A DNA stretch of 64,000 nt from a virus. A program made the translations under genes and the position numbers. Of the stretch, positions 14,111 to 64,000 are shown piece by piece (positions within the stretch are counted from its first letter, which is position 1; the number at the start of each line of letters is the position of its first letter). The stretch spans positions 1 through 64,000 of the IMG/VR virus record IMGVR_UViG_3300048883_000431. One strand, 5' to 3'. The notes below the pieces were generated by a model. The model saw only the letters and a program-made list of their open reading frames with translations. It was not told where the DNA came from and ran no database searches.

Positions 14111-15082
14111 ATGAAGACTACGCACATCAACCAACTTCGCGTGCTGGTCGTGGGCGACATCATCCTCGACCGATACGTTCATAGTACGACCACACGGCTA
14201 TCATCGGAAGCCCCCGTCCCCATCCTTCGCCCGGACAAGACCGAACACCGCCTCGGCGGCGCGGCGAACGTCGCACGGCAATGCGCAGCGTTTGGGTGCG
14301 AGACACACCTAGTGGGCATCACGGGGAAGGACGGGCCGTTCGCGACCCTATGCGACCTCTTCGACGAGTCGGGGATCGGCTACCTCGGGGTGTTCCACAG
14401 TGAACGCCGTCCCACGACGGTCAAAACCCGCTTCCTGGGGAACGGACACCAGGTAATGCGTCTGGACGAGGAGGTAAACGAGCGAGACCACGGCGACGAG
14501 GTTCACCCCCGATTACTCAGCCACCTGGAGCGCACCGCCCACCTCTACGACGTCATCATCGTCCAAGACTACGGGAAGGGCGTTGTCGACTTCGACCTCC
14601 TGGAGGCACTCCTCGACAGGTCGAAGAAGGACCGCGTCCTCGTGGCGGACCCGACCCCCGACAGCATGGGCAAATTCGAGGCTTTCGACTACGTCACGCC
14701 CAATGAGCGCGAGTTCCGTGAGTACCACAACCTCAACACCGCTGACCGTGGGGCCGACCGCCAGGCGGCGAACCGCCAGATACACGATAGCTGCCTCAAG
14801 GGCGTCCTAGTCACGCGCGGCGCGGGCGGCGTCTCGATCTACTACGACGACGACATGCACGTCGGCATAAAGGCTGCCCCGGTGGTTGTCCGGGACGTCA
14901 CAGGCGCGGGGGATACCGCCGTCGCAGCGTTCGCCGTCGTGCTGGCCGCCAGCGGCTGCCTCATGACTGCTGTCCGCGCGGCTAACCATGCTGGGGCCGC
15001 CGTCGTCCAGCAGCAGGGGTGCGGCGTGGCCACGGTGAGCGACATCCTCCCTGGAGAATACGATGACGCCCCTGAGATGTGA
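14111..15082 (+). CDS. PfkB-family kinase resembling the HldE kinase domain (heptose-7-phosphate kinase-like)
   Basis: 323 residues from the ATG at 14111, after GAGGGGGTCGCG; the frame opens earlier but has no ribosome binding site there. Family marks: VVGDIILDRYV at the start, SSEAPVPIL, LGGAANVARQ near residue 51, TPNEREFREY, VTRGAGG and the anion hole DVTGAGDTAVAAF near residue 265 with its catalytic Asp. These match the first domain of HldE, which phosphorylates heptose 7-phosphate on the way to ADP-heptose. The second, nucleotidyltransferase domain of HldE is absent and not found elsewhere in the window. Other sugar kinases of the family remain possible. Heptosyltransferase-like genes at 32858, 36321 and 61884 give it a plausible pathway. 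Confidence 0.82.
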   Translation: MKTTHINQLRVLVVGDIILDRYVHSTTTRLSSEAPVPILRPDKTEHRLGGAANVARQCAAFGCETHLVGITGKDGPFATLCDLFDESGIGYLGVFHSERRPTTVKTRFLGNGHQVMRLDEEVNERDHGDEVHPRLLSHLERTAHLYDVIIVQDYGKGVVDFDLLEALLDRSKKDRVLVADPTPDSMGKFEAFDYVTPNEREFREYHNLNTADRGADRQAANRQIHDSCLKGVLVTRGAGGVSIYYDDDMHVGIKAAPVVVRDVTGAGDTAVAAFAVVLAASGCLMTAVRAANHAGAAVVQQQGCGVATVSDILPGEYDDAPEM

Positions 15083-15356
15083 GCCAGGATACGTGTGTGT
15101 CGAGGGCGGCGTCGCGAACTCTCACCGCATCGCCTTTGAGTCGGCCTGGATCGTGCGCATCGGGGGGAAGCCCTACCGCGTGGGGCCAGGCTGGCACGAT
15201 CTGGCCCTACTGGTACTGCAGCACTTCCAACTCCACGGCTGGAACGTGTACGTGAGCGACCCAACGCAAACTACTGTGAGTCGGCGTTGGGTCGCGCAAG
15301 CGGGGCTGGAGATCACGCCGGTTGGGCCCACTCCTGGAATTCTTCCAGCGTCATAG
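15063..15356 (+). CDS. Hypothetical protein, 97 residues
   Basis: ATG at 15063 overlaps the kinase gene by 20 bases and follows GGAGAATACG. The product starts MTPLRCEPGYVCVEGGVANSH, looks alpha/beta and has no membrane segment. Its 3' end overlaps the convergent gene at 15313 by 44 bases. No family is recognised; coupling to the kinase suggests a related role. Confidence 0.5.
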   Translation: MTPLRCEPGYVCVEGGVANSHRIAFESAWIVRIGGKPYRVGPGWHDLALLVLQHFQLHGWNVYVSDPTQTTVSRRWVAQAGLEITPVGPTPGILPAS

Positions 15357-15525: not shown

Positions 15526-15579
15526 AGGTATGCCTCCTTCACCGGAAGCATACCTTGGCTGCCCGAGCTTGGCAAGGCG

Positions 15580-15981: not shown

Positions 15982-16017
15982 TGCTCGTCCTCCGTGTAGG
16001 GTGTCCAATTCATAGAT

Positions 16018-21480: not shown

Positions 21481-21481
21481 G

Positions 21482-29369: not shown

Positions 29370-30758
29370 ATGCCAGAGCTAACCGCAGTCGCTAAGGCGA
29401 CAAGGCAGGGTCTGGACGCTATCGCGGCCGCGCGGACGCGCGCCGAGGAGAGCGAACGGATCGACCTTGTAGCCAAGGAAGTGGCCAAGGCGGTTGAGGC
29501 AATGCGTCCCGCGCAGTCAAACGACCAGTATGCGTATGACGAGGACAAGGGCTTGGTACCGGCGGGCGACGTGTCCAAGGCGACCAACCCCGAAATGCAC
29601 CACGTCATCCACAAGCGCGGCGACTGGGAGAACGACGAACGCGTCAAGCGAGTGCAGGACTGGAACGATGCCTGCTACATCGCCAGCAAGGCGATGAACG
29701 TCGACGTTCGTCATACGAAGCTCTACAAGGACGGCATCGGCGAGGTGTCCGAACTTGGCAAGGCTCTCAACACCGGCACGGCCAGTCACGGTGGCGATTG
29801 GGTCCCAACGGACCTCAGCGCCCAGGTGATCGACATTCTCGAACGCAACCTCGTCGTGGCGACGCTCTTCCAGAGCATTGACATGCCGACGCAACCATTC
29901 GAGATTCCCCAGAAGACGGCGCGTAGCACGACCTACTACGTGAACGAGTCGACTTCGGACAACCCCAATCTGTTCCGTGCAAGCCAGCCAACCGTTGGCA
30001 AGCTCACGCTGACCGCGAAGAAGTTCGCGAACCGCGTGAACCTGTCCGACGAACTGACGGAAGACGGAATCGTGGCGATGCTGCCCCTCATCCGTGAGGA
30101 CATCGCGACGTCCCAGGCGCGAGCGGTTGAGGATACTCTGATCAACGGCGACACGACGGCGACTCACCAGGACAGCGATGTCACTGGCGTCGACGACGTT
30201 CGTAAGTCGATCAGTGGCATCCGTAAGCTGATCAACACCGCTGCGAAGTACGACGTGGACGAAGACGGCTCGGGCTCGTTGGACATCGAGGACTTCCGTA
30301 ACGCGCGGAAGCTGATGACCAACACTGCGGGTGCGGCCATCTACGGTGCGGACACGGCAGGACTCTCCTGGCTTACGTCCATCCACGGCGGACTCAAGAT
30401 GATGAACGCCCTGAAGGATTACGTGACGACCATCGACAAGTTCGGTGAGTCGCGCGCGACGATCCTCAAGGGGACCCTCGGCGCGGTCGATGGAATTCCC
30501 CTGTTGACTTCCGAATTCGTTCGGGTCAACCTCAACGCCTCTGGCGTATACGATGCCTCGGTCACTACGAAGACCGTGGTCATCATCGTCAACGGCAGCG
30601 CGGGGATCATCGGTAAGCGGCGCGGGCTGAAGATCGAGCAGGATCGCGTCATCGGCGCGGATCAGAACCTGTTGGTCTCCACACAGCGTTGGGACTTCCA
30701 GCCTCGCTACCCGACGGCCGAGAACACATTCGGTCTTCTACGCGACATAACCGCGTAA
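29370..30758 (+). CDS. Major capsid protein, HK97 fold family
   Basis: 462 residues, ATG after GGAGGAACACA. The N-terminal ~110 residues are helical and charged, as in the delta domain removed by proteases. The HK97-like core follows: VPTDLSAQVIDILERN, MPTQPFEIPQ, KLTLTAKKFANRVNLSDEL and, near the end, GSAGIIGKRRGLKIEQDR. This builds the icosahedral shell. Position after protease and scaffold-like genes supports it. Confidence 0.92.
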   Translation: MPELTAVAKATRQGLDAIAAARTRAEESERIDLVAKEVAKAVEAMRPAQSNDQYAYDEDKGLVPAGDVSKATNPEMHHVIHKRGDWENDERVKRVQDWNDACYIASKAMNVDVRHTKLYKDGIGEVSELGKALNTGTASHGGDWVPTDLSAQVIDILERNLVVATLFQSIDMPTQPFEIPQKTARSTTYYVNESTSDNPNLFRASQPTVGKLTLTAKKFANRVNLSDELTEDGIVAMLPLIREDIATSQARAVEDTLINGDTTATHQDSDVTGVDDVRKSISGIRKLINTAAKYDVDEDGSGSLDIEDFRNARKLMTNTAGAAIYGADTAGLSWLTSIHGGLKMMNALKDYVTTIDKFGESRATILKGTLGAVDGIPLLTSEFVRVNLNASGVYDASVTTKTVVIIVNGSAGIIGKRRGLKIEQDRVIGADQNLLVSTQRWDFQPRYPTAENTFGLLRDITA

Positions 30759-30773: not shown

Positions 30774-31145
30774 ATGGCTGCATTGGATAAGCGAGTTCTC
30801 ACGTTCAACGTCGAGGACAACGCAGCGGGGACGGGTTCGACCTACCCGCTCCTGATTGCCGACCGTAAGATGGATATTCGCGAAATCAACTTCGCGAGCA
30901 AGACCACCACGGCGGCGCACGCGTCAAACTACGTAACGGTGGCGCTCAAGAACGGCTCCGACACCATCGGGTCGGCAACGACCGTGACGGTGCTGACGGC
31001 CGCGGTCTTCCGAGCCCTCACACTAACGGCCGCTAACATCCGCGTCTCCGCAGGTGACACGCTCACACTCGTCCTGACACACTCAGGAACGGGCGCGGCG
31101 ACCGACGGTCTGGTAGTACAGATCGAGGCGGACCCCGTGGAATAA
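30774..31145 (+). CDS. Probable head decoration or small virion protein
   Basis: 123 residues, ATG after AGGAGGTCAGAAGC. Beta-rich sequence (ALKNGSDTIGSATTVTVLT, GDTLTLVLTHSGTG) with little charge, typical of small capsid-decorating or jelly-roll proteins. Directly after the major capsid gene and before a strong terminator. Structural role inferred from position and composition. Confidence 0.6.
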   Translation: MAALDKRVLTFNVEDNAAGTGSTYPLLIADRKMDIREINFASKTTTAAHASNYVTVALKNGSDTIGSATTVTVLTAAVFRALTLTAANIRVSAGDTLTLVLTHSGTGAATDGLVVQIEADPVE

Positions 31146-31201: not shown

Positions 31202-31222
31202 CTGCCCTCCGTGGGATGTCCT

Positions 31223-31232
31223 GTGCTATAAT
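31223..31232 (+). promoter_or_regulatory. Extended -10 promoter for the first sugar block
   Basis: TGTGCTATAAT: TATAAT at 31227-31232 with an extended TGC, 17 bases before the start at 31249. No good -35. Confidence 0.6.
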
Positions 31233-31248
31233 GCCCGTGGGGGGCTTG

Positions 31249-31962
31249 ATGGCGCAAGAGATCGCACGGCACACAGCTCACGGCAAGTACATGATCGACT
31301 CCGACACGGGCGTGGTCTTCCGTGAGGGGTTCCGATGCGCAGAGGGGGCCGACTACACGGACCCCTACTTCCAAAAATGGGTGAACTTCCCCGAGGGACC
31401 CAAGGAGCGTCTCGCTGCCATACGCTACGGGGTGATCCGCGACCACACCGACGCCCCTGACCGCGCAAGCGTTCTCGACTTCGGGTGCGGCACTGGCGAC
31501 TTCATCATGTACGCTCGCGAACACCCTTCCCCCTTCAACGCGCAGGGGTGGGACGTCCACCGGAACGAGTCCAATCGAGCGCTAGCCCACACATTCCTCG
31601 ACCCCGGCATGATGCCCCTGAAGGTCAAGCACTGGGACGTCCTTACGATGTTCGACGTGATCGAGCACATCGAAGACCCCGCACCGATCCTTACCTCGAT
31701 CCCGCACCAATGGCTGGTGGTGACGGTTCCCAACGCGGACCCCTCTCTGTTCGGGGGCACTGGAGCGTTTTGGCGGTGGCGTCATCTCCGCCCGACCGAG
31801 CACGTACACCATTTCAACGCCACAAGCCTCCCCCTCTACCTGGAGCAGTTCGAGTACACATGCGAGTACCTGGAGTCACCGGAGGACGAGGTGCGGGTCA
31901 ATGACGAGCAGTCCTTCCCTAACACGCTCACGGGGGTTTTCAGGTGGAACGGGTCTTCCTAA
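31249..31962 (+). CDS. Class I SAM-dependent methyltransferase
   Basis: 237 residues from the ATG at 31249, after GGGGGGCTTG. Motif I is VLDFGCGTGDF near residue 80, and the acidic end of strand 2 is at WDVHRNES. LTMFDVIEHIEDP is the motif IV region of the UbiG/methyltransferase 23 type. The N-terminus (ADYTDPYFQKWVNF) is like those of sugar or lipid methyltransferases found in surface-glycan clusters. It transfers methyl from SAM; the acceptor is unknown. It is first in a row of eight genes inserted between head genes and connector. Confidence 0.85.
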   Translation: MAQEIARHTAHGKYMIDSDTGVVFREGFRCAEGADYTDPYFQKWVNFPEGPKERLAAIRYGVIRDHTDAPDRASVLDFGCGTGDFIMYAREHPSPFNAQGWDVHRNESNRALAHTFLDPGMMPLKVKHWDVLTMFDVIEHIEDPAPILTSIPHQWLVVTVPNADPSLFGGTGAFWRWRHLRPTEHVHHFNATSLPLYLEQFEYTCEYLESPEDEVRVNDEQSFPNTLTGVFRWNGSS

Positions 31963-32861
31963 CAGGGATCACGGGAGCCACGGGCGTCCCACTGGCCAAC
32001 GCGCTCCACAGCAAGGGGCATGTAGTGTCCGGGTGTTCGCGGCGCGGTCGCACACACAACTGTGGGCTCCACGAGCACATCCGGGTCTTCAAGGCGGACC
32101 TCACCGACCCCGTGGCCTGCTTCTGGGCCGTCAACGGCATCGAGCCGACTGTCGTGGTCCACCTCGCCGGGGCCACGAACGTGCGGGACGCGGTGGCATC
32201 GCCGCACGCCACACTCGCACTAAACGTGGGCGCACTCTTCAACCTCACGAACTTCCTGTCGCACGTCTGGCCGATCCGCTACATCGTGGCAAGCTCGTCC
32301 GAGGTCTACGGCGACACGCTGGGCGTTCTGACCGACCTTACACCCCCGGCACCGAAGTCGGTGTACGGTGTCAGCAAGATGGCACAGGAGCATGTGCTGG
32401 AGGAGCAGGTCAACGTCCGTACGTTTTGGAACATCAACCCCCTGCGCGCGGACAGCGCGATCTCCCAGTTCGCGCGGAAGATCGCCGAGGTCGAGGCGGG
32501 GATGCGGGATGACGTGGATCACGGCGACCTGGAGTCGCTCAGGTCCTTCATGGACTACACCGACGTTGTCCGTGCTTACCTGGTTCTCATCGAGAGCGGC
32601 GTGACGGAGGGCACCTACAACGTCGGGTCTGACCTAGCAACGGACGTCCACCGCATCGGCGACTACCTCGACATCTTGCGCGACATGGCGGCCTGCGACA
32701 TCCCAACACGGACTAACATTCGGGACACCGGGGAGCGGGACGTGGTACACCCCGGACTGCCCGACATTAACCCCATGAAGGCGCTGCGGTGGGCTCCCAC
32801 AAGCAGGCTGGAGGAGTCGCTCGCACACGCGCTCCACCACGCGCGGGGGCTGGTGGCATGA
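31944..32861 (+). CDS. NAD-dependent sugar epimerase/dehydratase (extended SDR)
   Basis: 305 residues from a GTG at 31944, overlapping the methyltransferase by 19 bases. The Rossmann motif FLTGITGATG is at residue 5. The active site is complete: SSSEVYGD supplies the Ser and YGVSKMAQEH the Tyr-xxx-Lys pair. Such enzymes change nucleotide sugars (epimerisation at C4, 4,6-dehydration or ADP-heptose epimerisation). The exact substrate cannot be read. Position with heptosyltransferase-like genes makes a role in donor-sugar synthesis likely. Confidence 0.85.
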   Translation: MERVFLTGITGATGVPLANALHSKGHVVSGCSRRGRTHNCGLHEHIRVFKADLTDPVACFWAVNGIEPTVVVHLAGATNVRDAVASPHATLALNVGALFNLTNFLSHVWPIRYIVASSSEVYGDTLGVLTDLTPPAPKSVYGVSKMAQEHVLEEQVNVRTFWNINPLRADSAISQFARKIAEVEAGMRDDVDHGDLESLRSFMDYTDVVRAYLVLIESGVTEGTYNVGSDLATDVHRIGDYLDILRDMAACDIPTRTNIRDTGERDVVHPGLPDINPMKALRWAPTSRLEESLAHALHHARGLVA

Positions 32862-33982
32862 GGGTACCGGGGAAGCTCACGCAGATATGGAAGTTAGCGG
32901 ACGAGCTGTCCCGCTCCTTCACCAAGGACGAGCGCTCGGGGCGGAGCTTCGAGGTGCTTAGGTCCTGCGTGCGGGAAACGGCGTCAGTCGCGGAGCGTCA
33001 CCAACGTGCCCTCGCGGGACCCCTACCCGATGCACCGACCGGAGAACAGCAGATGATCGACTTCACGCCGCCCAAGCTAATCGAGGACGGGGACACCCCC
33101 AAGCCAAGACCGAAGCCGAGGCCGCCCGCACGCCCCCACAAGACGGTGCTCCCCCATGAGCACTTCCACGCGTTCAACCCGGTGGCATTCGAGAAGGCGA
33201 AGCGAGTGGGTGTGCCCAGGTTCTCCAGCTCCGGGCTAGGTATCGGGGACGTCCTCTTCGCTGTACCCGCCATCAAGGCGCTCGGCGGCGGCGAACTCAG
33301 CATCACCTGCTTCGACACGTTCTTCTCCTGGTCCCCGTCACACCCGTTCACCAGCGCCAGTTACCGGGGGCGCACCTACCACAACCTCGCGAAGTTCCTT
33401 GCGTCGCAGGACTACATCACGGAGTGCAAGGCGGTGTCCTATGATCCGTCAGTCTACTACGACGTGGAGTTCGACAACGTGCGCCACATCTGGCACCGTG
33501 TGGTGAATGAGAACATCCCCCTGCTGGATCTATACCAGAGCTACGTGGGCGGTAGGCTGCGACTCGACGACGCCTGGCTCACGCCCCCGGACGAGGTGTA
33601 CCCCGAGTTCCAAGACGCCGTGGTAATCAACATGAACGACCGGCGCGTCTGCGAGCTCGACCTCCGTGTGCTGGGCGACTACGAGCACGTCGTGTTCCTC
33701 GGGCTCCCCCGCGAGTGGGAATTCTTCCAGAATGAGTGGGGGATCAGCGCGACTCACCACGAGGCCAAGGACTTCTTCGATATGGCGTCACTGATGAACT
33801 CCTGTCGCATGTTCATAGGGTGCTCGTCGTCGCCCATCGTGCTTGCGGACGGACTCAACGTGGACCGTATCTACTGCCAGTGGGTCAGTAAGCCCCACCA
33901 CCAATCCGTGGGTGGGAACACAGTGACCGTGTCGACCGACGAGCAGTTCGTCGACGCACTCCTTGATCGGGGCATCCTATGA
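32858..33982 (+). CDS. Heptosyltransferase-like (GT9-like) protein with N-terminal extension
   Basis: 374 residues; ATG overlaps the previous stop (ATGA). Residues 1-~65 are helical and ~68-100 a Pro/Lys-rich linker (KPRPKPRPPARPHK). The GT-B-like part begins with SSGLGIGDVLFAVPAIKAL, the signature of the ADP-heptose:LPS heptosyltransferase group, and ends with CSSSPIVLADGLNV, equal to the donor-side GDSG-type loop. A well-placed ATG near 33052 (after GGAGAACAGCAG) could give a shorter form without the extension. Donor and acceptor are unknown; membership of GT9 is weakly supported and should be tested by structure. Confidence 0.6.
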   Translation: MRVPGKLTQIWKLADELSRSFTKDERSGRSFEVLRSCVRETASVAERHQRALAGPLPDAPTGEQQMIDFTPPKLIEDGDTPKPRPKPRPPARPHKTVLPHEHFHAFNPVAFEKAKRVGVPRFSSSGLGIGDVLFAVPAIKALGGGELSITCFDTFFSWSPSHPFTSASYRGRTYHNLAKFLASQDYITECKAVSYDPSVYYDVEFDNVRHIWHRVVNENIPLLDLYQSYVGGRLRLDDAWLTPPDEVYPEFQDAVVINMNDRRVCELDLRVLGDYEHVVFLGLPREWEFFQNEWGISATHHEAKDFFDMASLMNSCRMFIGCSSSPIVLADGLNVDRIYCQWVSKPHHQSVGGNTVTVSTDEQFVDALLDRGIL

Positions 33983-34173
33983 GCTTTCCCAAGTCCCTCC
34001 GCCGCCTCGACCCGCCGCCTGGACGGTTTACTAATATCCGCCAGGACGGGCTTGGGAGCGAAACCACCCGGTGCGCACAGCGCTACCTTGCCATTCCCCG
34101 CAGTGTGTGGAATACTATACTTGACGAGGCCGGGATGCTTCCGATCATGGAGCTCCTCAACTACGACGTATGA
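33979..34173 (+). CDS. Hypothetical protein, 64 residues
   Basis: ATG overlaps the previous stop (ATGA), after GGGGCATCCT. Starts MSFPKSLRRLDPPPGRF, with a helical end (SVWNTILDEAGMLPIMELLN). No family recognised. A short gap and a new ribosome binding site separate it from the methyltransferase gene. Confidence 0.5.
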   Translation: MSFPKSLRRLDPPPGRFTNIRQDGLGSETTRCAQRYLAIPRSVWNTILDEAGMLPIMELLNYDV

Positions 34174-34186
34174 GAAAGGATCGCAC

Positions 34187-34834
34187 ATGTCCTGGACATT
34201 CGAGCCATCGTTTGAACGTAAGGCGTCGGTTGCGGCGCTGTTTGCTACGCTTCCGCACCGGGAGAAGATTGACGGCCCAGGCCGTGCGGGGGGCTCCCCA
34301 GACTACTACCCGGTCCTCCACGACGTGGCACGACTCATCGACGCCACGTCCGTGCTTGAAATCGGCGTCCGTCTTGGGTACGGCGCGATTGCGATACTTA
34401 GCGCCTCCCCGAGATGCGAGCGCTACGTGGGCGTGGATAACGAGTCCTACATCCCCGAATCGAACACCCTGGCCCTGGCGAATATCCTTCACGGACACGC
34501 GGGCTTCAACGCAAAGATCGTCCTCGACAACTCGGCAAAGGGACTTCCGCCGGAGGTGGGCAAGAAGAAGTTCGGACTGGCCTACGTCGACGGGAGTAAG
34601 GATAACATCGCCAAGGACGTGAAGAACGCCTGGGATGCCCTCTTGGTTGGCGGGTCGCTGCTCATTGACGACGTTCAGGTGGAAACCGAAACCCGTGAGC
34701 AGGCGGCGGACGGGCTGGCGTCCATTGGGGGCCAGTCAGAGATCGGCCCCATCATCGAGGTGTTTACGGGCACGGCGGAAGTCCCGAGAGGACTGTTGTG
34801 GGTAACCAAACTTCGCCCCCTCTCAGCAAACTGA
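34187..34834 (+). CDS. Class I SAM-dependent methyltransferase (type 24-like)
   Basis: 215 residues from the ATG at 34187, after GAGAAAGGATCGCAC. Motif I is SVLEIGVRLGYGAIAIL near residue 60, the Asp after strand 2 is at YVGVDNES and the strand-4 motif reads FGLAYVDGSKD, as in methyltransferase 24 and related sugar O-methyltransferases. The N-terminal DYYPVLHDVARL helix also fits. It may methylate a sugar made or attached by neighbouring enzymes. Confidence 0.8.
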   Translation: MSWTFEPSFERKASVAALFATLPHREKIDGPGRAGGSPDYYPVLHDVARLIDATSVLEIGVRLGYGAIAILSASPRCERYVGVDNESYIPESNTLALANILHGHAGFNAKIVLDNSAKGLPPEVGKKKFGLAYVDGSKDNIAKDVKNAWDALLVGGSLLIDDVQVETETREQAADGLASIGGQSEIGPIIEVFTGTAEVPRGLLWVTKLRPLSAN

Positions 34835-35388
34835 CCCACGTTGGTCTGAACGTAGGGTGCGGTACAGACTACAGGGAGGGGTTTGTGAACGTGGACGCGT
34901 CCAATCACGGACAGCGGGTGGACGTGGTTCTGACAATTCCCCAAGACTCCCTCCTCGACGTAGTCGCCCCTGGGCAGTGCCACACCATCGTGTGTAACCA
35001 CATGCTGGAGCACCTACATAGGTGGGAGGCGGATGCTCTTTTACGAGAGTTCGTAGTTCTTCTATCCCACGGAGGGACACTGTCGCTGAGTGTCCCAAAC
35101 GTCGCGTGGATCGTGGCGAACATGTCCGAGGAAACTCTGCTTCGGTTCCTATACGGGGGGCAGGACGCCCCGCACCCAGGGGACTCGGACGTGAAGGCGC
35201 ACCGCCGCAGGACGAGCCCCGAACTGTTCGTCCACCGTTTTGGGTACACGCGGGCTACTCTGGAATCATCCCTCCTTCGGGCGGGACTAACCGACGTCGC
35301 CATCGTCGAGGATGGCCAACAACTGCATTCGGTATCCAAGTGTTCCCGGCATCACGACGGAGGCGTGGGCGATAGGGCTCCCCAGTAG
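34798..35388 (+). CDS. Class I SAM-dependent methyltransferase (type 11-like), source-like copy of the 7491 fragment
   Basis: 196 residues from a GTG at 34798, overlapping the previous gene by 37 bases. Motif I is LNVGCGTDYREGFVNVDAS near residue 17, and CNHMLEHLHR is the motif IV region. This compact form (GCG plus VNVD) is frequent in phage and surface-polysaccharide clusters. Its motif I region is also present as a broken copy at 7491-7574. The last 77 bases overlap the next gene in another frame. Confidence 0.8.
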   Translation: MGNQTSPPLSKLTHVGLNVGCGTDYREGFVNVDASNHGQRVDVVLTIPQDSLLDVVAPGQCHTIVCNHMLEHLHRWEADALLREFVVLLSHGGTLSLSVPNVAWIVANMSEETLLRFLYGGQDAPHPGDSDVKAHRRRTSPELFVHRFGYTRATLESSLLRAGLTDVAIVEDGQQLHSVSKCSRHHDGGVGDRAPQ

Positions 35389-36355
35389 GCAACTGATCAT
35401 CGAAGCCACGGCGAACAACATCGGCGACACGTTCGTCAACGTAGGAGCACGTCGTCTGGTTCCGGGATTAGGGTCTGGGTACGTCCAGTCCCTTCCGCCC
35501 GAGAACTACCAGCACGACCCGGCGTGGCTGGAGGAGCGCACCGCCCTGAGCTTCGACGTAATCTACATCGTGGGGACCCCGTGGTTCTTCCGAGGGTGGG
35601 CGACCTCGGACAAGTCCAAGATGCTCGCGAGGGTCGTGGAGCGCTACCCCAACACACCGAAGATAATGCTGAGTCCTGGCCACTGCGTTCCCAGCGTTGG
35701 GTATGGGACCGTCTACGATTCCCCAGGGCTTGGGGATTCCGACCTCGTGAACCATATGGACCTCATCGTGTGCAGGGACCGGTATGCCTACGACTACACC
35801 AGTGGGCTATCCGACTGCGCGGATCGAGTCGTCCTCGCCAAGTGTGCCTCGCACGCGGCGTACTTGCCGGAGGACTTCGGGAACCCGCCACAGTCTGGGT
35901 CGGTCTGCGTGTGGATGGACTTCGCGTCACTGTCGGGACACGCGGGCTACCGGGCTTACCAAGCCCTCAGCGCCATAACGCCGGAGCAGTGGCAGTCGTC
36001 TATTGACCACGAGGCCACGGTGGCCGACGCAGTATGCGTCAACTCCGCGCGGGACGCAGAGGTGTACACCGCCAAGTTCGGGCGACCACCGGACATGAGC
36101 CACCGCGACCCCCACGACTACGCGGAGTGGGTGTCCCACTTTGAGAGCATGGTGACGTCGCGTGTACACTCGGCCACGATTGGGCACTCCCTCGGACTGG
36201 ACGTAAGACTCCTGGCGGCTGACACCCGTGCCGATACCGCCTACCTCTGCGGCGTGAGCTCCTACCTCGACCTCCCCGCCACCGAGACCACCCACACCGT
36301 GACTAGCTGGGATGACGTAAATGATAGAATTCTCTCACTCAGGGGCGCTCGGTGA
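35312..36355 (+). CDS. Polysaccharide pyruvyl transferase-like protein
   Basis: 347 residues. The N-terminus has ATANNIGDTFVNVGARRL, the middle VIYIVGTPWFF and KIMLSPGHCVPS, and the end MVTSRVHSATIGHSLGLDVRLL, which matches the SR-H-(A/S)...SLG-P motif of the pyruvyl transferase family (GT-B fold). Members add pyruvate ketals to sugars from PEP. It could also be a distant GT. The ATG at 35312 overlaps the upstream gene by 77 bases and has a weak ribosome binding site, so the true start may be later. Confidence 0.65.
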   Translation: MANNCIRYPSVPGITTEAWAIGLPSRQLIIEATANNIGDTFVNVGARRLVPGLGSGYVQSLPPENYQHDPAWLEERTALSFDVIYIVGTPWFFRGWATSDKSKMLARVVERYPNTPKIMLSPGHCVPSVGYGTVYDSPGLGDSDLVNHMDLIVCRDRYAYDYTSGLSDCADRVVLAKCASHAAYLPEDFGNPPQSGSVCVWMDFASLSGHAGYRAYQALSAITPEQWQSSIDHEATVADAVCVNSARDAEVYTAKFGRPPDMSHRDPHDYAEWVSHFESMVTSRVHSATIGHSLGLDVRLLAADTRADTAYLCGVSSYLDLPATETTHTVTSWDDVNDRILSLRGAR

Positions 36356-41649: not shown

Positions 41650-42644
41650 TCCGACTAGAGCCAGAGTACCCTGACTACGAGGTCATCGTGCCGACCTTCG
41701 AGCGCCCCAAGATGCTCGATGCTTTCCTCGGGCAGGTGCGGCACTGCAACGCCCACAAGCCCCCCAAGCGAGTCATCGTGGTGGACGACGGCTCTTCGCC
41801 GGAGACCGTCGAGAGTACCAAGCGCCTTCGGTCCAAGCACAGCGACGCGGCAATGCGTGTTGCACTCGTCCTACGCGAGGAGCAGGGTGGGTACCAGGCC
41901 GCAACGCGTGACGGACTTTCCCACGTGGAGACCAAGTACGCCGTGGTGTGCGCCGACGATGTTCGTCTGGGGCAGGAGACTAGTCCCGGCGTGTTCTCCT
42001 GCCCGTCGGACCCCAACCCATTCGTAACGCTTGTCTACTACCTGGCGGGCGCGGAGCGCGTCCGAAGCAACATACAGAATGCGGAGGAGGAGGCACGCGT
42101 CCCCTACCCGGTGGGCGTGGTTATCCCTTGGGGGGTGAAGTTGGAGACCCCAGGCACGGTGAGCGCGTCCAATCGGGAGATGTGGTCGCTAAGTGCGGGC
42201 ATCCTCCCACTGGTTACGGACCAGAAGAGTGGTTTTGGCCTCGACGCGCTTGTAGGTGTGGAGGAGCTTGCGTTCTACGAGGGGTCAGTTGGCGCGCACT
42301 ACTGCTTCGCGCTCGACATGAACTACTACCGGTCTCTCGGTGGATTAGACCCGGAGCTCGACGGTCCCAACATGTACTCATTTTGGGACTATACTCTGCG
42401 CGCGAGGAATACAGGGGTTGCGACCTACTTTACGAACCGTGCGGTCTACATGCACCGCACCCAGCCGTACACCAAGCACCGTGCGTCGCTCGCGAACACG
42501 GTTCTCCACGGCAAAACGTCCATACGAACCGGGGAGCTTCTCCTTTCCCGGTGGGAGCGCTATTCGATTGCGGGCCTCAACCGGCCGATAAACCCGCCAC
42601 ACACAGACTTCACGGGGATGATGAACAATGCCTGGAGTGGATGA
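41646..42644 (+). CDS. Glycosyltransferase, GT-A fold (GT2-like)
   Basis: 332 residues. The N-terminus has YEVIVPTFERPKML and RVIVVDDGSSPETVEST, the nucleotide-binding core of GT2, then GYQAATRDGL and VVCADDVRL (DxD-like metal site). The C-terminal half (EELAFYEGSVGAHYCFALDM and YYRSLGGLDPELDGPN) fits the acceptor region. Its 3' end overlaps the tail chaperone gene by 17 bases, so it is closely linked to tail genes. Cytosolic, no membrane helices. Confidence 0.85.
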   Translation: MIRLEPEYPDYEVIVPTFERPKMLDAFLGQVRHCNAHKPPKRVIVVDDGSSPETVESTKRLRSKHSDAAMRVALVLREEQGGYQAATRDGLSHVETKYAVVCADDVRLGQETSPGVFSCPSDPNPFVTLVYYLAGAERVRSNIQNAEEEARVPYPVGVVIPWGVKLETPGTVSASNREMWSLSAGILPLVTDQKSGFGLDALVGVEELAFYEGSVGAHYCFALDMNYYRSLGGLDPELDGPNMYSFWDYTLRARNTGVATYFTNRAVYMHRTQPYTKHRASLANTVLHGKTSIRTGELLLSRWERYSIAGLNRPINPPHTDFTGMMNNAWSG

Positions 42645-51531: not shown

Positions 51532-51550
51532 GGATTTGCCATGGCCAAGT
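51528..51550 (+). repeat. Direct repeat, copy 1, at the start of the fibre gene
   Basis: GTAAGGATTTGCCATGGCCA and following bases, matched by 53838-53861 at the end of the fibre gene. Includes the stop of one gene, the ribosome binding site and the first codons of the next. Confidence 0.65.
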
Positions 51551-53841
51551 CAGCTTCCACTTACCAGGGCTTCCAGGTCCCGGCACTTCAGACCGACACC
51601 ATTGGGTTTGACGACGACTTCGCTGCGTTCAAGACCCACCTCGACGCCGCCCTATCCAGCCACGCCTCGAACATCTCGGGGTCTGCGAACGCGGCGGGCG
51701 GGACCTCCTACGCCAGCAACGCGGGCAAGATTCTCTCGGCGTCGGCGAGCTCTCCGAGCCCTCTAGGACGAGTCTTCCCCCTCTCCGCGAGCACCGACTC
51801 GATTCTGATGTTCCAGGAGAACCCTGGCGGCAACACTGCGGGTAACGACAAGTGGGTCATTGGGTACGACGACTCCAGCGGCTTCTTCGCCATCCACGAC
51901 GCAGCGACTATACCGACGACCATCCGCGACGCGCGGGTGAGCATATCTGCTAACGCGATGTACGTGACGACCAACGACTCGGGCGCGACGGTCAACTCGA
52001 ACTACGACGATCTCGTCGTGGAGGTCGCCGCCACCGGGGGGATCACCATACTCGGCCCGGACGCGACCGAGTTGGGGCTTGTGTTCGGAAACGTCACGCA
52101 GCCAATCAACGCTGCCATCACGATGCAGTCTAACGACAAGCTACGGATGTTCACGTCAGTAGACGACGGCGAGATTAAGTTCGCCACCGACGTGGACTCG
52201 CTGGCCATGACCATCGACAAGAACCAGCATGTCGTCGTCCACAGCGGGTCGCTCACGGTCATTAGGAGCGGTATCCAGTCGGGATCGGACGTCAATATTG
52301 GCGCGGACGACTTGGTTATCGACGCCTCCAACAGTGCCGGGATGTCGATACTTACGAAGGCGAACTTCAGCGCCAGCGTATTCCTCGGGGCCAACGGCTC
52401 GGCTAATGACGCGGCGCGCATACAGTGGGCGGACGACGTGGACCTCTTCCACATAGGCACGAACTACGCTGGCGCTGAGGTCCGACTACGAACGGACACC
52501 AACACCCTCGCTTTGACCCTTGGGTCGGACCAGTCCGCCACGTTCGTAGGGGACGTCGTTGCGGAATCCAACCTTGACGTCGAAGGGTATGCGGCCATCG
52601 GGGACGGGTCCTCCCTCGACGCGGACTGGACCCTGACCGTCGACCGCGACTTCTCGTCCACCACAAACCCCCGTATGCTCAACATCCGTGGGATTATGAC
52701 GGTGACGGCCGGGACAAGCAACCTCTACGGTCTGTTCGCTGACACGTCCATGGTTATCAACTCCGCGTCGGCGGAGGTCCACCCCGAGGTCGCGCAGTTC
52801 TACATCTCGGACCCCGACATCTCCCTGGGGGGCACGTCGCCGGGAACCCTTACCCTGGCCGCAACCCTCCTCGTTGACGGTAAGCCCACCGAGGGTACGA
52901 AGAACGCAGGGATTTGGGTGCAGTCGGGAAGCTCCACTGCCACGCCCGACACCGGGGCCAACACCCTCGTCATCGAGGGGTCCGATCCCGACGGGACGGG
53001 GGCTAGCATACTCTCAGCCAACGGTAAGGAGTCGCGACTGTACTTCGGCTCCCCCGCTGACGGGAATGGGGCTCGAATTACCTGGGGGTATAACGCTGGG
53101 TTGCTATCCATCGCGAGCTATGTGAGCGGGGCCAATGTCGAACTCTTCAGTGGTACAGGGACGGCGGGCATAACGATTGCGGGCAACAGCGGCGACGTGA
53201 CCGTAGACGGCACGACCACCTCGACCGGCGACATTATCGCTGGCGGGGACATCGGGCTTTCCGGCGATCAGGACCTGATCTCCTTGGCGGCGAACCTGGT
53301 GACCGTCAACGGCGCGCTCACGACGACCGGCGTCATCACGACGGCGGACGACCTGATCGTCGATGGAACCAACATCGGGATCACCACAGACCTCGACCTA
53401 ATCACACTCGCGCTGAACTTGCTCACCGTGACGGGTGCCCTGACCGTCTCCCTCGACCTCATCGTGGAGGGGGGCGACATCGGGATCGCCGCCGACACCG
53501 ATCTCCTTGCTCTGGCGGCCAACGCGTTCACGATCAACGGTGCCGTCACCCAGGTCGGCGCGTTCCTCACCTCCCTGGCAGGCGATCTCCTCGTCGACGG
53601 TGGCGACATCGGCATCACGGGGGATACCGACCTCATGCAGCTCTCCAGCGCGGCGCTAACCGTGAACGGCAGCCTAAGCGCCACATCGTTCGTATCGACG
53701 CCCCTCATCTCCCTCACGGGTTCCACCGGGGACTACCTCCAGTTTGACGCGGAAGGCACGGCCCCCAACACCGCCGCCGGAAGCGTTAAGGTGGATGTTG
53801 GCGGGGCGGTTCGGTATCTCATCACATACTCTTCGCTGTAA
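51541..53841 (+). CDS. Tail fibre-like protein with four C-terminal repeats
   Basis: 766 residues, beta-rich, Thr/Ser/Gly/Asp-rich. About residues 565-740 hold four repeats of 30-40 residues, each with DIG or NIG, then D-DL--L, A-L-TVNGAL or a variant (GDIGLSGDQDLISLAAN; NIGITTDLDLITLALN; GDIGIAADTDLLALAAN; GDIGITGDTDLMQLSSA). This looks like a trimeric beta-helical fibre shaft. No chaperone domain is seen. It lies within DNA that seems to interrupt the LamG-like domain and is flanked by direct repeats. Confidence 0.72.
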   Translation: MAKSASTYQGFQVPALQTDTIGFDDDFAAFKTHLDAALSSHASNISGSANAAGGTSYASNAGKILSASASSPSPLGRVFPLSASTDSILMFQENPGGNTAGNDKWVIGYDDSSGFFAIHDAATIPTTIRDARVSISANAMYVTTNDSGATVNSNYDDLVVEVAATGGITILGPDATELGLVFGNVTQPINAAITMQSNDKLRMFTSVDDGEIKFATDVDSLAMTIDKNQHVVVHSGSLTVIRSGIQSGSDVNIGADDLVIDASNSAGMSILTKANFSASVFLGANGSANDAARIQWADDVDLFHIGTNYAGAEVRLRTDTNTLALTLGSDQSATFVGDVVAESNLDVEGYAAIGDGSSLDADWTLTVDRDFSSTTNPRMLNIRGIMTVTAGTSNLYGLFADTSMVINSASAEVHPEVAQFYISDPDISLGGTSPGTLTLAATLLVDGKPTEGTKNAGIWVQSGSSTATPDTGANTLVIEGSDPDGTGASILSANGKESRLYFGSPADGNGARITWGYNAGLLSIASYVSGANVELFSGTGTAGITIAGNSGDVTVDGTTTSTGDIIAGGDIGLSGDQDLISLAANLVTVNGALTTTGVITTADDLIVDGTNIGITTDLDLITLALNLLTVTGALTVSLDLIVEGGDIGIAADTDLLALAANAFTINGAVTQVGAFLTSLAGDLLVDGGDIGITGDTDLMQLSSAALTVNGSLSATSFVSTPLISLTGSTGDYLQFDAEGTAPNTAAGSVKVDVGGAVRYLITYSSL

Positions 53842-60200: not shown

Positions 60201-61884
60201 CCGGGACAGTGCCGGGGACGGGGATTCGCCGGATTCTGTTCAGGGACACTGCTACTTGGCGGAAGCGGACTACACCGACTCGGGTGGGGATACCGCCTCC
60301 TGGGGGACTGGTGCTGAATCCGACGTCGGCGGGGTCAAGGAGGGGATTGGGCACGCCCTGGAGGTATCCACGCAGAGCGCGATTGAGAACCAGCTCTACC
60401 TTCTTTGGGACGGCGCGGCATCGACCACGCACACCGACATCACCCTCAAAAGGATACTCCTCGTTCGGCCGAACACCTTCACCTGGGTGTCGACCCTACA
60501 GTCCCCCTTCAAGTACGCCGACGGGGATGTTGTCGTTCTTATGATCGCGGAGACCGGCGGTCCCCTAACAATTGGTAAGCGCATTGCGGGGCAGTCCTGG
60601 GTCTACGGGGTCACCGGGGACCTCTCGGAGGACCACGAGTACGGGGGTATCACGGGGACGGCGATCCCGGTCCAGGATGGGCATGGGGTAAGGTTCCCCG
60701 CCGGGTCGCGTGTCTTCATCGGTGCCCAGGCCCCAAACACCGCCATCGAGTACGCCACCCGACGGGGGGACGCTAGGCTCGGGCAGGTACGCGAGGTGGA
60801 CAGTGTGGTAGTGGGCGCGGATCAGTCCCCCACGAGAGCGTTCGACATTCTCAACCTCACGGCGCGTTTGGACACCCTCCCCCAGCCGGGCGACCGGGTC
60901 GAGGTCCTGACGGTGGCGGACGCGGCGTCGATCTCCACCTACGGGCGCGTGGAACGCCCTGCCGAGCACACGGAAATCCTGGACCCCGAGGAGCTCTACC
61001 GGATTGCCCGGAAGGACTTACGACTAGGGAAGGACCCGATCCCACGCTACGAGGTGTCCGTGCTTGATCTGGAGTTTATGAACCCGACCAGTCGATACGA
61101 GTTCGACGGGGCGGTCATCGGGAACACATACAGGATCATAGACAGCGACTACGACCTGGATAGGTCTGACTTCAAGCTCGTGAAGATCAAGCGGGACTAC
61201 GAGACCCCCCTTGAGTCCCGGATGCAGTTCGACCACCACGAGAAGACGCTCATGCGTGGATTCACTCTGTCCACGGAGTTCCGTCTCCGCAAGGAAGCCC
61301 TGGCGAGAGAGCAAGTACGGTACGCCCAGGACTCGCCCAAGTGCATCTACTTCGACACGGTCACCCGACGGTGCAGGAAGGTCAAGCCGCCGAACTCGTT
61401 CTGCAATACGCAGTCGAGCAACCGCGACGGGCGTCTTCGCGGCGACAACGCACGCTTGACCACCAGTGACTGTCGGAACTTCACCCCGCCTGACAACGCG
61501 AACCTGAAATTCTTCAGCCACACGGATTCGCAGAGCTTCACGCTGGGGAGTGGGACCACGAGCCTGTCCTTCGACCTCGACGTGCTCGCCAACCCCGATC
61601 AAGGGACCACGGGGATGCAGTGGGACATCGAGGACAAGCCGAAGCCCGTCGCGTTCGTGACCGACGCCTACTACCTGGACCAGTACTCCAACAAGACGTA
61701 CGTGTCCCCCGGGGACCTCTCCGCCACGTTTGACCAGGACGACGACGGGGAGTTCACACCCAACGACGCTTTCTTCGGTACGGGAGCCCGTGTTACAATA
61801 GCCAGAGCCGGGTCGTTTGACTCCGGCGAGGCGTTGACCATCTTAGGAACACTACTGGTCGTTCTTCCTGGGTCTAGGGCTTAA
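57268..61884 (+). CDS. Very large tail hub/tail-associated protein
   Basis: 1538 residues. The N-terminus (FFLQVWDKDAKLVTHWLP, EEELNVEHTLKFKLP) resembles the central hub proteins that follow Dit in siphoviruses (Tal or gp18-type minor structural proteins). Around residue 520 a fibronectin-III-like stretch is seen (DSDTTYYFRVAPVDADGK). Near residues 1355-1405 four cysteines are clustered (CIYFDTVTRRC, FCNTQ, DCRNF), perhaps a metal site or disulfides. Function inferred from position, size and N-terminus: baseplate hub and host contact. Confidence 0.72.
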   Translation: MPSERFFLQVWDKDAKLVTHWLPYAHDIVEEEELNVEHTLKFKLPMSDSRSADVGFRNIVRLIDAEKGFFATSCSGVDEGAKTIDVPDASRLSVDDYVLIYDSPTTPTKSFVAKILAVDGTTLTLSRMDFVPTAGTESGGRTYAEIEGDAYVDWVGRGYIDLLGDSGVASTGSPVMKWTGKTFRVWDVRDSRGADGAPVRDVTCNHISYDLNDTRFLIDSRTDITFGLASTQSVTSKLITPERIVDEVVKTQRTAATDFSNGWIKGDISAQLTKRTETTYSASVAISTASRTVTGTGTSFLSGVRQGSRLYTINLGTLNAIVDYVVSDTELLLKSLPRFTTTSAVIQTDPDVRTFEFDTNGSLRSAIVKIAEVWRDDKQDVHLTYGEDKSINVAKVDNPNASDPTGDMEIRLGKNLQSSSRKQDVAGFGNTVYATGGTSGWVGAQTGQHFTIGGNPATLPFHRNTRDKFRLDTPTEIRQLRWGDPVTIMHQPMNVNVSGWTDDNEILINFRGAIPTISSALGDTFGHLDSDTTYYFRVAPVDADGKEGPASLEATETLAPGEHSVMVSYSGGGSTYRVYFSTTSGEYTEYITDTASPFQLTTEGGAKKGSPKDFDATSYTNGMILVRDYDSSGAGSVVDVDIGAGQLRTIESMTKVGHVSNTDESSLYYRVKTTSPWAVLPSTHYDVVLCKGPDAFMTPITGFGVFQKRLPSDGSYSSQEPHATIETGSGGRRFNARLGDPGVGYQSSTHASGFDTFKDHYTGGVIQLRDSRGTSATTSSLADDTQLDGQQRVILSSGRGSQNESHASQTDMIVKFKSPGTLNNLLPHYEMTGPSQLVHEYDDGDYDITTEIVTTPVNGLRVTVVGAERTRTNTVTYTNSASQKYGQDRGGELDFLEISVGDEVYAEYGGEWLIGNVGMVDVANKRVWLDGGFINGMYTGGSLDEHTPSTNAPMIIRKPRPNFNHESGIGNMFHPVLHRDSAGDGDSPDSVQGHCYLAEADYTDSGGDTASWGTGAESDVGGVKEGIGHALEVSTQSAIENQLYLLWDGAASTTHTDITLKRILLVRPNTFTWVSTLQSPFKYADGDVVVLMIAETGGPLTIGKRIAGQSWVYGVTGDLSEDHEYGGITGTAIPVQDGHGVRFPAGSRVFIGAQAPNTAIEYATRRGDARLGQVREVDSVVVGADQSPTRAFDILNLTARLDTLPQPGDRVEVLTVADAASISTYGRVERPAEHTEILDPEELYRIARKDLRLGKDPIPRYEVSVLDLEFMNPTSRYEFDGAVIGNTYRIIDSDYDLDRSDFKLVKIKRDYETPLESRMQFDHHEKTLMRGFTLSTEFRLRKEALAREQVRYAQDSPKCIYFDTVTRRCRKVKPPNSFCNTQSSNRDGRLRGDNARLTTSDCRNFTPPDNANLKFFSHTDSQSFTLGSGTTSLSFDLDVLANPDQGTTGMQWDIEDKPKPVAFVTDAYYLDQYSNKTYVSPGDLSATFDQDDDGEFTPNDAFFGTGARVTIARAGSFDSGEALTILGTLLVVLPGSRA

Positions 61885-64000
61885 TGGGACACAACTCCAT
61901 CGTCTACCAGAGGGAAACTGGGGCCATCGTCCAGAAGACCTCGTCCATGTCCGTCCTTCAGCCGCGCGATGTAGCTAAGGGGCTGGTTCTCCTACATCTC
62001 CCGGCCCATCTCAGCCGAATACTGCTGGTGGAGCACACCCACGTCCGATTGTCCAACGGGGAGGCTGTCGGCTTCCACGCCGTGGGCGGTGGGTTCGGGG
62101 GGTCAGCAATATCCCACACCCAGCCCCTGGTACCCGACGGCAAGGCCAGTAAGATCGCGGTGTCCGCTCTTGGGGACGTCATACTGTCCCTACCCGCTGC
62201 CGAAGAATACGCCCGGACCCTTGACGGGGGGATCACCTACATAACCGACGGGCAGATGGTCGAGTTCCTGAGTCGGATTCCGTTCGTAGCCCGCGCGGTC
62301 TCCGGTCTACGCGCAAGATACGCCCCTGGGAGATACATCAACCTCGGGACACTGGGCGAGGCGGTTCCTCCAAGCGAACGACTCCCCCGACCGGAGCAGT
62401 ACGCGGACATCCTTGGGGTCACCCTCAGCCTGACGAGTATGCCGAATTACCTGACGTCGGGACCAGAGGAACTGGCCTGGGCCTCGTCCGTCGTGGAGAA
62501 TCTCCCTCGCCCCATCGTGATGGTGTCCCCCTTCACGGGGAGCACGTTGAAGGAGTGGCGTAAGGAGCGCGATCTCATGGCAGCCATGCCCGACGTGACC
62601 TTCCTGATGGTGGGGAAGAAGTCGGCGTCCACCGGGCTAGACAACGTCGTGAGCTTGGGCGGTCGGACAACGGTCACGTCGCTCATGTCCCTGATGACAC
62701 TGTGCGATGCAGGCGGCTTCTTGGACACCGGACTCATGCACGTGGCCGGTATGGTGGGGACGCCCTACGTTGCAGTCTTTGGAGGGGTCCATCCCCCGGT
62801 CGAGTTCACATCCCTCTACGATACCGTCCACACGCTGTCATCGCGGGATCATCGCGCCGTCACGGACATGTCCACGTCGGACTGCTCCCCCTGCTACCTC
62901 GGTAAGTCAGGCTCATGCTTGGGGACCGAGCACGAGCGGTGGTGTATGCGGAGTATCGAGATCGACGAGGTGGGGACCAAGCTCCGGGAAGTGCTTGATG
63001 GGAACGGGCGCAGGGGGCCGAGTAAGTGGTCCACGCCGAAGGGGCGTCCACGAAAGGCCACAAAGAGCGTAGCAGTTGTGTGCGTTGGCGGGTTCGGGGA
63101 CACCCTGGTGGCCCTCAACACCCTCCGGGAGTTATCCCCCAAGCTCCGAGAATCCTACCCAAGCGCGGAGATCGACTTCGTAGTTCGGGACGACTATCGG
63201 GCACTGAAGGACCTGCCCTGGTTTGACAACTGGCGGGCGGTCTCCGGTGGCACGACCCAGGCGAAGTCCATGGAGTGGTGCCAGAGTAACTACGACCTCA
63301 CGATAGAGCTCAAGCACGGCAACCCCAAGTCGGACCCGTTCGGTCCCGACCCCATAGCTCTGGTACAGTCCAGAAACCTCGGAGACCTGTCGTTTACCCC
63401 GGACGGTGGGACTCTCACGCACCACCTCGACGTCCTCTCCCCTGGACGTGCCGAGGTGGCCCGGCTATCCCGGGTGCTTCCGCCCGAAGGGGAGTACGTG
63501 GTCTTGGCGAACGGGACCGACGTGACACTTGGGAATCTGACGAAGGCAGTGGGGGGCAAGTTCTTCGGCGACCTGGGACGCCTCATCGCCGAAGCCGGGC
63601 TTACGCCGGTGGTCGTAGGTGTCAAGGGGGCGGGAGCTGTCGCGATCCCCGGCGCGCTCGATCTTGTGGGGAAGACCAGTCTCGGAGGGCTGGCGTCCGT
63701 CCTTCGCGGCGCGCGCGGGGTGGTGTCCATCGACAACGGGGTTGTTCACCTCGCCTCCCAGATAGGCGTCCCGTGTGTCGTTCTGTTTGGGCCGACCAGC
63801 GCCGCCTTCTGGGGGTACGAGTTCAACCTGAACGTGACCCCCGAACCAAACACCTGCAGCGAGGCCCCCTGCTGGCTTACCACCCGGGATTGGCACACGG
63901 CCTGCAAGGTCGACCCGATGTCCACCGGGACCCCGGCCTGCATGGGTTCGTATGACGCTGCTAGAATATGGGCGTTGGCTGGTCGCTATCTGGAAGATCG
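61884..64000 (+). CDS. Double heptosyltransferase-like (GT9-like) protein, runs off the right edge
   Basis: The ATG overlaps the previous stop (TAATG) and the frame is open for 705 codons to the end of the window. Two heptosyltransferase-like units are seen. Unit 1 (about 95-390): KIAVSALGDVILSLPAAEEY, VSPFTGSTLKEWRKERDL, LDTGLMHVAGMVGTPYVAVF and a Cys cluster (CSPCYLGKSGSCLG). Unit 2 (about 395-690): VAVVCVGGFGDTLVALNTL, VLANGTDVT, GVVSIDNGVVHLASQIGVPC and VVLFGPTSAAFWGYE, the donor-binding region. The D-G-hydrophobic-HLA motif is well kept in unit 2 and altered in unit 1. Donor and acceptor unknown. The C-terminus is missing. Confidence 0.82.
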   Translation, partial: MGHNSIVYQRETGAIVQKTSSMSVLQPRDVAKGLVLLHLPAHLSRILLVEHTHVRLSNGEAVGFHAVGGGFGGSAISHTQPLVPDGKASKIAVSALGDVILSLPAAEEYARTLDGGITYITDGQMVEFLSRIPFVARAVSGLRARYAPGRYINLGTLGEAVPPSERLPRPEQYADILGVTLSLTSMPNYLTSGPEELAWASSVVENLPRPIVMVSPFTGSTLKEWRKERDLMAAMPDVTFLMVGKKSASTGLDNVVSLGGRTTVTSLMSLMTLCDAGGFLDTGLMHVAGMVGTPYVAVFGGVHPPVEFTSLYDTVHTLSSRDHRAVTDMSTSDCSPCYLGKSGSCLGTEHERWCMRSIEIDEVGTKLREVLDGNGRRGPSKWSTPKGRPRKATKSVAVVCVGGFGDTLVALNTLRELSPKLRESYPSAEIDFVVRDDYRALKDLPWFDNWRAVSGGTTQAKSMEWCQSNYDLTIELKHGNPKSDPFGPDPIALVQSRNLGDLSFTPDGGTLTHHLDVLSPGRAEVARLSRVLPPEGEYVVLANGTDVTLGNLTKAVGGKFFGDLGRLIAEAGLTPVVVGVKGAGAVAIPGALDLVGKTSLGGLASVLRGARGVVSIDNGVVHLASQIGVPCVVLFGPTSAAFWGYEFNLNVTPEPNTCSEAPCWLTTRDWHTACKVDPMSTGTPACMGSYDAARIWALAGRYLED

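Follow-up and report, generated by a model that had tools for sequence, protein, structure and literature searches.

Sugar-handling genes within the virion operon

The stretch analysed here (the window, 64,000 bases) comprises bases 1-64000 of the 112,229-base IMG/VR virus record IMGVR_UViG_3300048883_000431, and the remaining 48 kb of the record were also read. The record represents a large uncultured phage, in which about 20 sugar-handling genes, including glycosyltransferases (GTs), methyltransferases and a HldE-type sugar kinase, were found, most of them located between head and tail genes. No close relative of the phage was found: relatives of its capsid protein occurred only in two short viral contigs (31-38% identity), and the nearest annotated phage was Microcystis phage Mvi-JY20 (30.5% capsid identity).

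The rightward virion operon began with the genes for terminase (23535), portal (25387), head protease (27147) and HK97-type capsid (29370), continued with the connector (37166), 38092, 38978, the probable major tail protein (39589), a GT4 (40519) and a GT2 (41646), and went on through those for tail assembly (42628), tape measure (43527), Dit (50389) and further tail proteins up to 61884, where the tandem GT9 protein came next. The neighbours of the sugar genes were assigned as virion genes by Pfam and PHROG matches (portal, head protease, HK97-type capsid, tape measure and Dit; the major tail protein weakly). Seven sugar genes (31216-37118) lay between the decoration gene 30774 and the connector gene 37166, two (GT4 and GT2) adjoined the major tail gene, and one (61884) followed the tail tip. 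The sugar genes of the window were as follows.

14111..15082, + strand: HldE/HldA-type (PfkB) sugar kinase, stand-alone, without the nucleotidyltransferase half (TIGR02198, PfkB)
31216..31962, + strand: class I methyltransferase (PF13489, 57.7 bits)
31944..32861, + strand: extended short-chain dehydrogenase/reductase (SDR), RMD/GMD-like nucleotide-sugar reductase/epimerase (PF01370, 118 bits)
32858..33982, + strand: GT9-like glycosyltransferase a, paralogue of 36321 (BLASTP; no Pfam match)
34187..34834, + strand: methyltransferase, Methyltransf_24/O-methyltransferase-like (PF13578, 37.0 bits)
34798..35388, + strand: methyltransferase-like protein (PF13489, 25.8 bits, just under the cut-off of 27)
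35312..36355, + strand: polysaccharide pyruvyltransferase-like protein (PF04230, 25.4 bits, cut-off 25.3)
36321..37118, + strand: GT9-like glycosyltransferase b, predicted GT-B fold (AlphaFold, Foldseek; no Pfam match)
40519..41649, + strand: GT4-like glycosyltransferase (PHROG 2170 glycosyltransferase, 75.6 bits; Pfam below cut-off)
41646..42644, + strand: GT2-family glycosyltransferase (PF00535, 44.7 bits)
61884..64000, continuing to genome position 64031, + strand: tandem protein of two GT9 domains (PF01075 in two stretches, 72.2 bits)

The preliminary description of the window had listed the kinase, an SDR epimerase, four heptosyltransferase-like domains, GT4- and GT2-like transferases, a pyruvyltransferase-like protein and three methyltransferases. 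Every member was present, the SDR, GT4, GT2, pyruvyltransferase-like protein and methyltransferases by Pfam, PHROG or NCBIfam matches; however, the list was too short, as ten more genes lie at genome positions 63961-74017. As it stated, nearly all of them are found among virion genes, namely the seven, two and one genes above; the kinase is the exception.

The sugar genes at 31216-37118 overlapped or abutted one another, many of the overlaps being only a few bases, and the GT2 gene 41646 overlapped the downstream tail assembly gene by 17 bases. These overlaps suggest that the genes are expressed together. Scans of the 29-44 kb region found terminator-like sites at chance level and promoter-like sites barely above chance. 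In the capsid relatives L005, L006 and Mvi-JY20, the capsid gene was followed by the connector genes without the cassette; the cassette therefore has the look of a block inserted where head and connector genes meet. GT genes were placed within the virion operon, as is looked for in phage virion glycosylation systems. A relative of GT4 40519 in Arthrobacter phage KellEzio occupied a matching position, between the tail terminator and the tail chaperone. A tblastn search with GT2 41646 found no annotated phage relative.

The GT9-like proteins and the 36321 family

The four heptosyltransferase-like domains were of two kinds. Both halves of 61884 retained the GT9 invariants G-D, K, D and H, and the protein also matched heptosyltransferase I/II models, indicating from its sequence that it is a true tandem GT9 protein. 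The other two domains, 32858 and 36321, were paralogous (BLASTP E about 5e-8; both in one shared profile). Neither matched PF01075 in the Pfam search, and a profile-versus-profile comparison of the pair with GT9 gave an uninformative probability of 2.4%.

The structure check that had been suggested for the GT9-like proteins was run for 36321. With an 18-sequence alignment, AlphaFold gave a model with a predicted local distance difference test (pLDDT) score of 83.5 and a predicted template modelling score of 0.85; with two sequences, the pLDDT was 32. The best solved match in Foldseek was TibC (E 1.4e-7, TM-score 0.61 by query), and the other solved matches were a Veillonella GT9 protein, WaaC (2h1h, E 2.5e-6) and WaaF (1psw, E 6.4e-5). 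The highest-ranking viral model was that of a phage protein annotated as FkbM methyltransferase; further down the list were phage proteins with the names RfaF and Aah/TibC. We therefore assign 36321 with confidence, on the basis of the model, to the GT-B fold enzymes of the WaaC/WaaF (GT9) type. The catalytic-base Gly-Asp was invariant in all 18 aligned sequences of the family.

TibC is a protein O-heptosyltransferase (PMC4358343). With TibC and Aah (the bacterial autotransporter heptosyltransferase, or BAHT, family, which heptosylates Ser in beta-solenoid proteins), 36321 shares the predicted GT-B fold, and the catalytic-base Asp motif is invariant in its family; it differs in having no TIGR04414 match, N-terminal barrel or iron-finger motif. 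TIGR04414 had no match in the phage's own genome at E <= 1. Since it has neither the barrel nor the iron finger, 36321 is TibC-like in its predicted fold but not a BAHT member. With the lipopolysaccharide (LPS) heptosyltransferases WaaC, WaaF and WaaQ, both halves of 61884 share the GT9 match and the retained invariants, whereas the tandem fusion in a phage and the low similarity to each named subfamily set 61884 apart. No annotated phage relative of 32858, 36321 or 61884 was found by tblastn.

The kinase, the SDR and the heptose pathway

Kinase 14111 matched TIGR02198 rfaE_dom_I with 255 bits (equivalog cut-off 345) and PfkB with 114.8 bits, and the next-best non-Hld family, ribokinase, scored about 175 bits lower (81 bits). 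Its best solved relative was HldA (PDB 4e84, E 3.5e-38), and the HldE motifs EAPVPI, GGAANVA, TxKTR, DYxKG and GAGDT were retained. The best solved relative of SDR 31944 was GDP-6-deoxy-D-lyxo-4-hexulose reductase (2pk3, E 9e-23), and its score with the HldD model TIGR02197 was 35 bits (cut-off 274.6), below that with galE (55). By its sequence, the SDR thus resembles GDP-6-deoxy-hexose reductases and not HldD.

In the 112-kb record, which is possibly incomplete, we found no CTP_transf_like match at E <= 1 that would indicate a HldE-C or HldC nucleotidyltransferase, no SIS_2 or GmhB match for GmhA or GmhB, and no other nucleoside triphosphate (NTP)-transferase gene. If the sugar is heptose, the steps that the phage lacks must come from the host. 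ADP-D,D-heptose is a donor that BAHT enzymes can use (PMC4358343); by analogy, HldD would probably not be required. Accordingly, the heptose-like sugar system proposed earlier was borne out in its HldE-type kinase and in the GT9/TibC-type transferases of the virion operon but not as a pathway, which is incomplete and has an SDR unlike HldD.

Relatives in other phages and in bacteria

A scan with the 32858/36321 profile found 21 viral loci, which formed five groups by gene content. The five groups are unrelated, and in four of them no more than about 5 kb separated the 36321 relative from genes for terminase, portal or head-tail adaptor, a count given without a formal null and with the fifth group (L035) truncated; these neighbours were identified by open reading frame (ORF) sequence only in the L016/L020 type and by PHROG matches in L018, L028/L036 and L033. 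L018 carried a GT whose best NCBIfam match was Aah/TibC. Scans with single sequences of 36321 and of the kinase found no relatives, whereas alignment-based scans did.

The clearest case was the uncultured phage IMGVR_UViG_3300010934_000189 (L033:2738-12684), where the order was terminase, a GT2-GT9b-GT4 fusion, a methyltransferase, a GT2-like gene, a radical SAM gene, an FkbM methyltransferase, a rfaE_dom_II-like nucleotidyltransferase resembling heptose-1-phosphate adenylyltransferase (132 bits, cut-off 181.5) and a portal-like gene. As in the present phage, a GT9b-type GT and methyltransferases were found inside the packaging/head gene block. L033 differed in having the nucleotidyltransferase and radical SAM genes and no kinase in the stretch read; one half of heptose activation, the kinase, is found in the present phage and the nucleotidyltransferase half in L033. 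Relatives of 36321 were also found in Planctomycetota and Verrucomicrobia metagenome-assembled genomes (MAGs; L057-L060). The 36321 family is thus not phage-only, and these relatives may hint at its origin or at the host.

HldE-like kinases were found by tblastn in 28 phage records, chiefly of cyanophages, and an alignment-based scan of viral contigs found kinase relatives encoded in at least 551 viral stretches. Among the best 80 of these at least 551 loci, home-made hidden Markov models indicated 35 kinase-nucleotidyltransferase fusions and 37 loci with a HldD-like SDR nearby. Other stand-alone kinases of this type followed immediately on portal genes in L066 and on baseplate genes in L075 and L087, and kinase, SDR, GTs and methyltransferase-like genes were recognised together by eye in L095 and L062. 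In S-CAM3, the kinase, a gene annotated as phosphoheptose isomerase but closer to a capsule phosphatase in model searches, a nucleotidyltransferase and a HldD-like epimerase (189 bits) were found among tail-fibre genes near the neck gene gp13. The preliminary description knew of no described phage system with this set; that view is wrong, given the fuller annotated sets of S-CAM cyanophages beside tail fibres and the abundance of HldE-like kinases. Phages with similar sugar gene sets are common, and it is the number of parts that is unusual in this phage.

Two of these loci were also viewed for their gene order. At L066:4688-8978, two consecutive portal-like genes (PHROG 213) preceded the stand-alone HldE-type kinase, and similar ORF spacing recurred in several other viral contigs. 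The neighbours of the neck-like genes in the cyanophage-like L085:2603-11193 were a fused HldE, a HldD-like gene, a cupin, an oxygenase-like gene, two carbamoyltransferase-like genes and, as a weak match, a 36321-family gene.

A second sugar cluster

The gene of the tandem GT9 protein was followed at once, just beyond the window, by another ten sugar genes running leftward (genome 63961-74017). This second cluster consisted of six GT-like genes, two sulfotransferase-like genes and two methyltransferases:

63961, leftward: GT-like protein of unclear type, no family match
64987, 66766 and 68411, leftward: GT4-like proteins, mutually related
66057, leftward: FkbM methyltransferase
67851, leftward: Methyltransf_24 protein
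69943 and 71342, leftward: sulfotransferase-like pair, 49% identical (Sulfotransfer_2, 18.7 and 22.0 bits, cut-off 22)
72010 and 73046, leftward: related pair with a GT9-like N-terminus (by eye), 29% identical

Duplicated pairs were 32858/36321, 66766/68411, 69943/71342, 72010/73046 and the two halves of 61884, indicating, as far as sequence likeness tells, that the sugar gene set grew by duplication. No relatives were found in a scan with the alignment of the 64987, 66766 and 68411 GTs, and tblastn with 72010 found no annotated phage relative. The sulfotransferase-like genes 69943 and 71342 had almost no relatives in annotated phages.

A putative virion glycosylation system

Taken together, a late-expressed system that glycosylates the phage's own virion proteins is the likeliest reading, which we hold with moderate confidence; of the targets suggested earlier, the enzyme set in the late virion operon points to virion proteins. 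We prefer this reading because no membrane-spanning sugar protein and no thymidylate-synthase-type enzyme was found, because the cassette appears to be inserted at the head/connector junction, and because of the KellEzio GT4 position and the mycobacteriophage precedent. Virion protein glycosylation has, to our knowledge, been proven in few phages only, mainly mycobacteriophages, where it was reportedly described by Freeman et al. in 2023. According to two reports that cite this study (PMC12363180, PMC12619734), the capsid and tail tube proteins of mycobacteriophages Che8, Corndog and Myrna are modified by GTs that the phages themselves encode. The present phage shares the phage-encoded GTs, for a putative virion glycan; unlike those phages, it has about ten GTs, together with a HldE-type kinase, an SDR and genes for methyl-, pyruvyl- and sulfotransferase-like proteins. 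Cyanophages S-CAM3, S-CAM1, S-SSM7 and S-T4 likewise combine a HldE-like kinase with sugar-activation genes; their cassettes have a nucleotidyltransferase and, in S-CAM3, a HldD-like epimerase, whereas the present phage has neither and far more transferases. A literature search of partial coverage found no paper on phage protein heptosylation.

Starting from the genes and their families, the predicted fold of 36321 and a position that recurs in other phages, the system may work as follows. The enzymes would be produced alongside the proteins of head and tail, presumably late, and a first sugar would be attached to Ser/Thr of capsid, decoration or tail proteins. The chain would be lengthened by the GT9, GT4 and GT2 enzymes and capped by methyl, pyruvyl and sulfate groups. 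At least one of the sugars would be heptose or heptose-like, its activation probably being completed by host enzymes; heptose is suggested by the HldE-type kinase and by the TibC/WaaC-type transferases, the known relatives of the latter using ADP-heptose. The possible acceptors and the neighbouring connector were as follows.

29370..30758, + strand: HK97-type major capsid protein, possible acceptor (PF05065, 48.9 bits; relatives L005, L006, Mvi-JY20)
30774..31145, + strand: small Ser/Thr-rich decoration-like protein, possible acceptor (21% S+T; weak tail-protein PHROG; role from position)
37166..38092, + strand: head-tail connector, context (weak PF05135; counterpart in L006 encoded a little downstream of the capsid)
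39589..40416, + strand: probable major tail tube protein, possible acceptor (PHROG 476 major tail protein, E 0.0077; position)
51541..53841, + strand: Ser/Thr-rich repetitive tail protein, possible acceptor (21.4% S+T; repeats by eye; putative role)

A more specific proposal, which we put forward tentatively, is that the 36321 family consists of widespread TibC-like GT-B enzymes that O-heptosylate virion proteins, with ADP-heptose provided by phage and host together and with methyl, pyruvyl and sulfate caps added later; protein heptosylation would then be a general modification of phage capsids and tails. A phage that invests about 20 genes in virion glycosylation, and an uncharacterised GT-B family recurring next to the terminase and portal genes of phages that are not related, would suggest that capped virion glycans are common and could shape virion adsorption and recognition. 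Candidate enzymes and acceptors for such glycans are now defined.

Several observations weigh against virion glycosylation with heptose. A position between late genes would also suit enzymes that modify the host envelope late in infection; the second cluster lies apart from the virion operon and is read from the opposite strand; and two planctomycete MAG relatives of 36321 (L057, L059) are located in cellular glycan clusters, where weak HddA- and NTP-transferase-like genes accompany one of them and a sulfotransferase-like gene the other. In 36321, neither the N-terminal barrel of TibC nor a CxxC iron finger was seen, and ADP-heptose is not the sole donor used within the GT9 family. Kinase 14111 scores below the HldE equivalog cut-off, has Thr in its DPK-type motif in place of the Lys present in four compared enzymes, and lies about 16 kb upstream of the main cluster, before a polymerase gene and outside the virion genes; the remaining ADP-heptose pathway genes were not found in the record.

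The genes could instead alter a host surface glycan (LPS, capsule or S-layer) late in infection, blocking superinfection or keeping progeny off debris, which we consider rather unlikely. Gene clusters for surface polysaccharides typically contain GT9, GT4, GT2, pyruvyl-, sulfo- and methyltransferases, the Planctomycetota MAG clusters join 36321 relatives with methyltransferase, sulfotransferase-like and sugar-activation genes, and WaaC-type GT9 enzymes modify the LPS core without membrane spans. However, neither a flippase, polymerase or ligase nor any protein of the GtrA/GtrB/GtrC type or with membrane spans was recognised, and the genes interleave or overlap with virion genes in a placement that recurs in other phages and is not that of an early or lysogenic module. 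Host LPS alteration, as suggested earlier, found no support in the form of a Gtr-type membrane system: hydropathy indicated no multi-span protein, and the GT2 had only a weak PHROG 841 match.

Less likely again is that the kinase, for example as a general sugar-phosphate kinase, has no connection with the transferases and that a heptose-free virion glycan is made from host nucleotide sugars such as GDP-6-deoxymannose. The separate location and altered DPK motif of the kinase, the likeness of the SDR to GDP-6-deoxy-hexose reductases and the lack of another heptose-pathway gene are consistent with this explanation, whereas the fit of the kinase to the heptose-7-phosphate kinase model, 175 bits above ribokinase, and the L033- and L085-type phages, which join heptose-activation genes with GT9b-like genes, argue against it. 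Glycosylation of the phage DNA as in T4 and relatives, also raised earlier, is highly improbable: phage GTs can act on DNA (PMC12619734), and the phage has a dCTP deaminase and a weak match to the nucleotide-modification-associated DUF1599, but no thymidylate-synthase-like hydroxymethylase (no PF00303 match) and no DNA-hypermodification enzyme was recognised among the ORFs read, families beyond PF00303 not each being searched, the GTs resemble TibC/WaaC, GT4 and GT2 and not the T4 DNA glucosyltransferases, and capping by methyl, pyruvyl and sulfate groups fits a glycan.

Other genes of the record

A LAGLIDADG-like gene was recognised by eye at window positions 11339-12226 (- strand); short relatives of it occurred directly 3' of the 36321-family gene in L016 and L025. 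Further genes assigned by eye were an IscA/HesB-like iron-sulfur carrier with a CxC motif near the C-terminus (window 3251-3586), a dual-specificity phosphatase-like gene with an HCxAGxSRS motif that adjoins a DNA methyltransferase-like gene (genome 75990-76547), and a von Willebrand A domain-like protein adjoining a MoxR-like AAA ATPase (genome 97716-100608).

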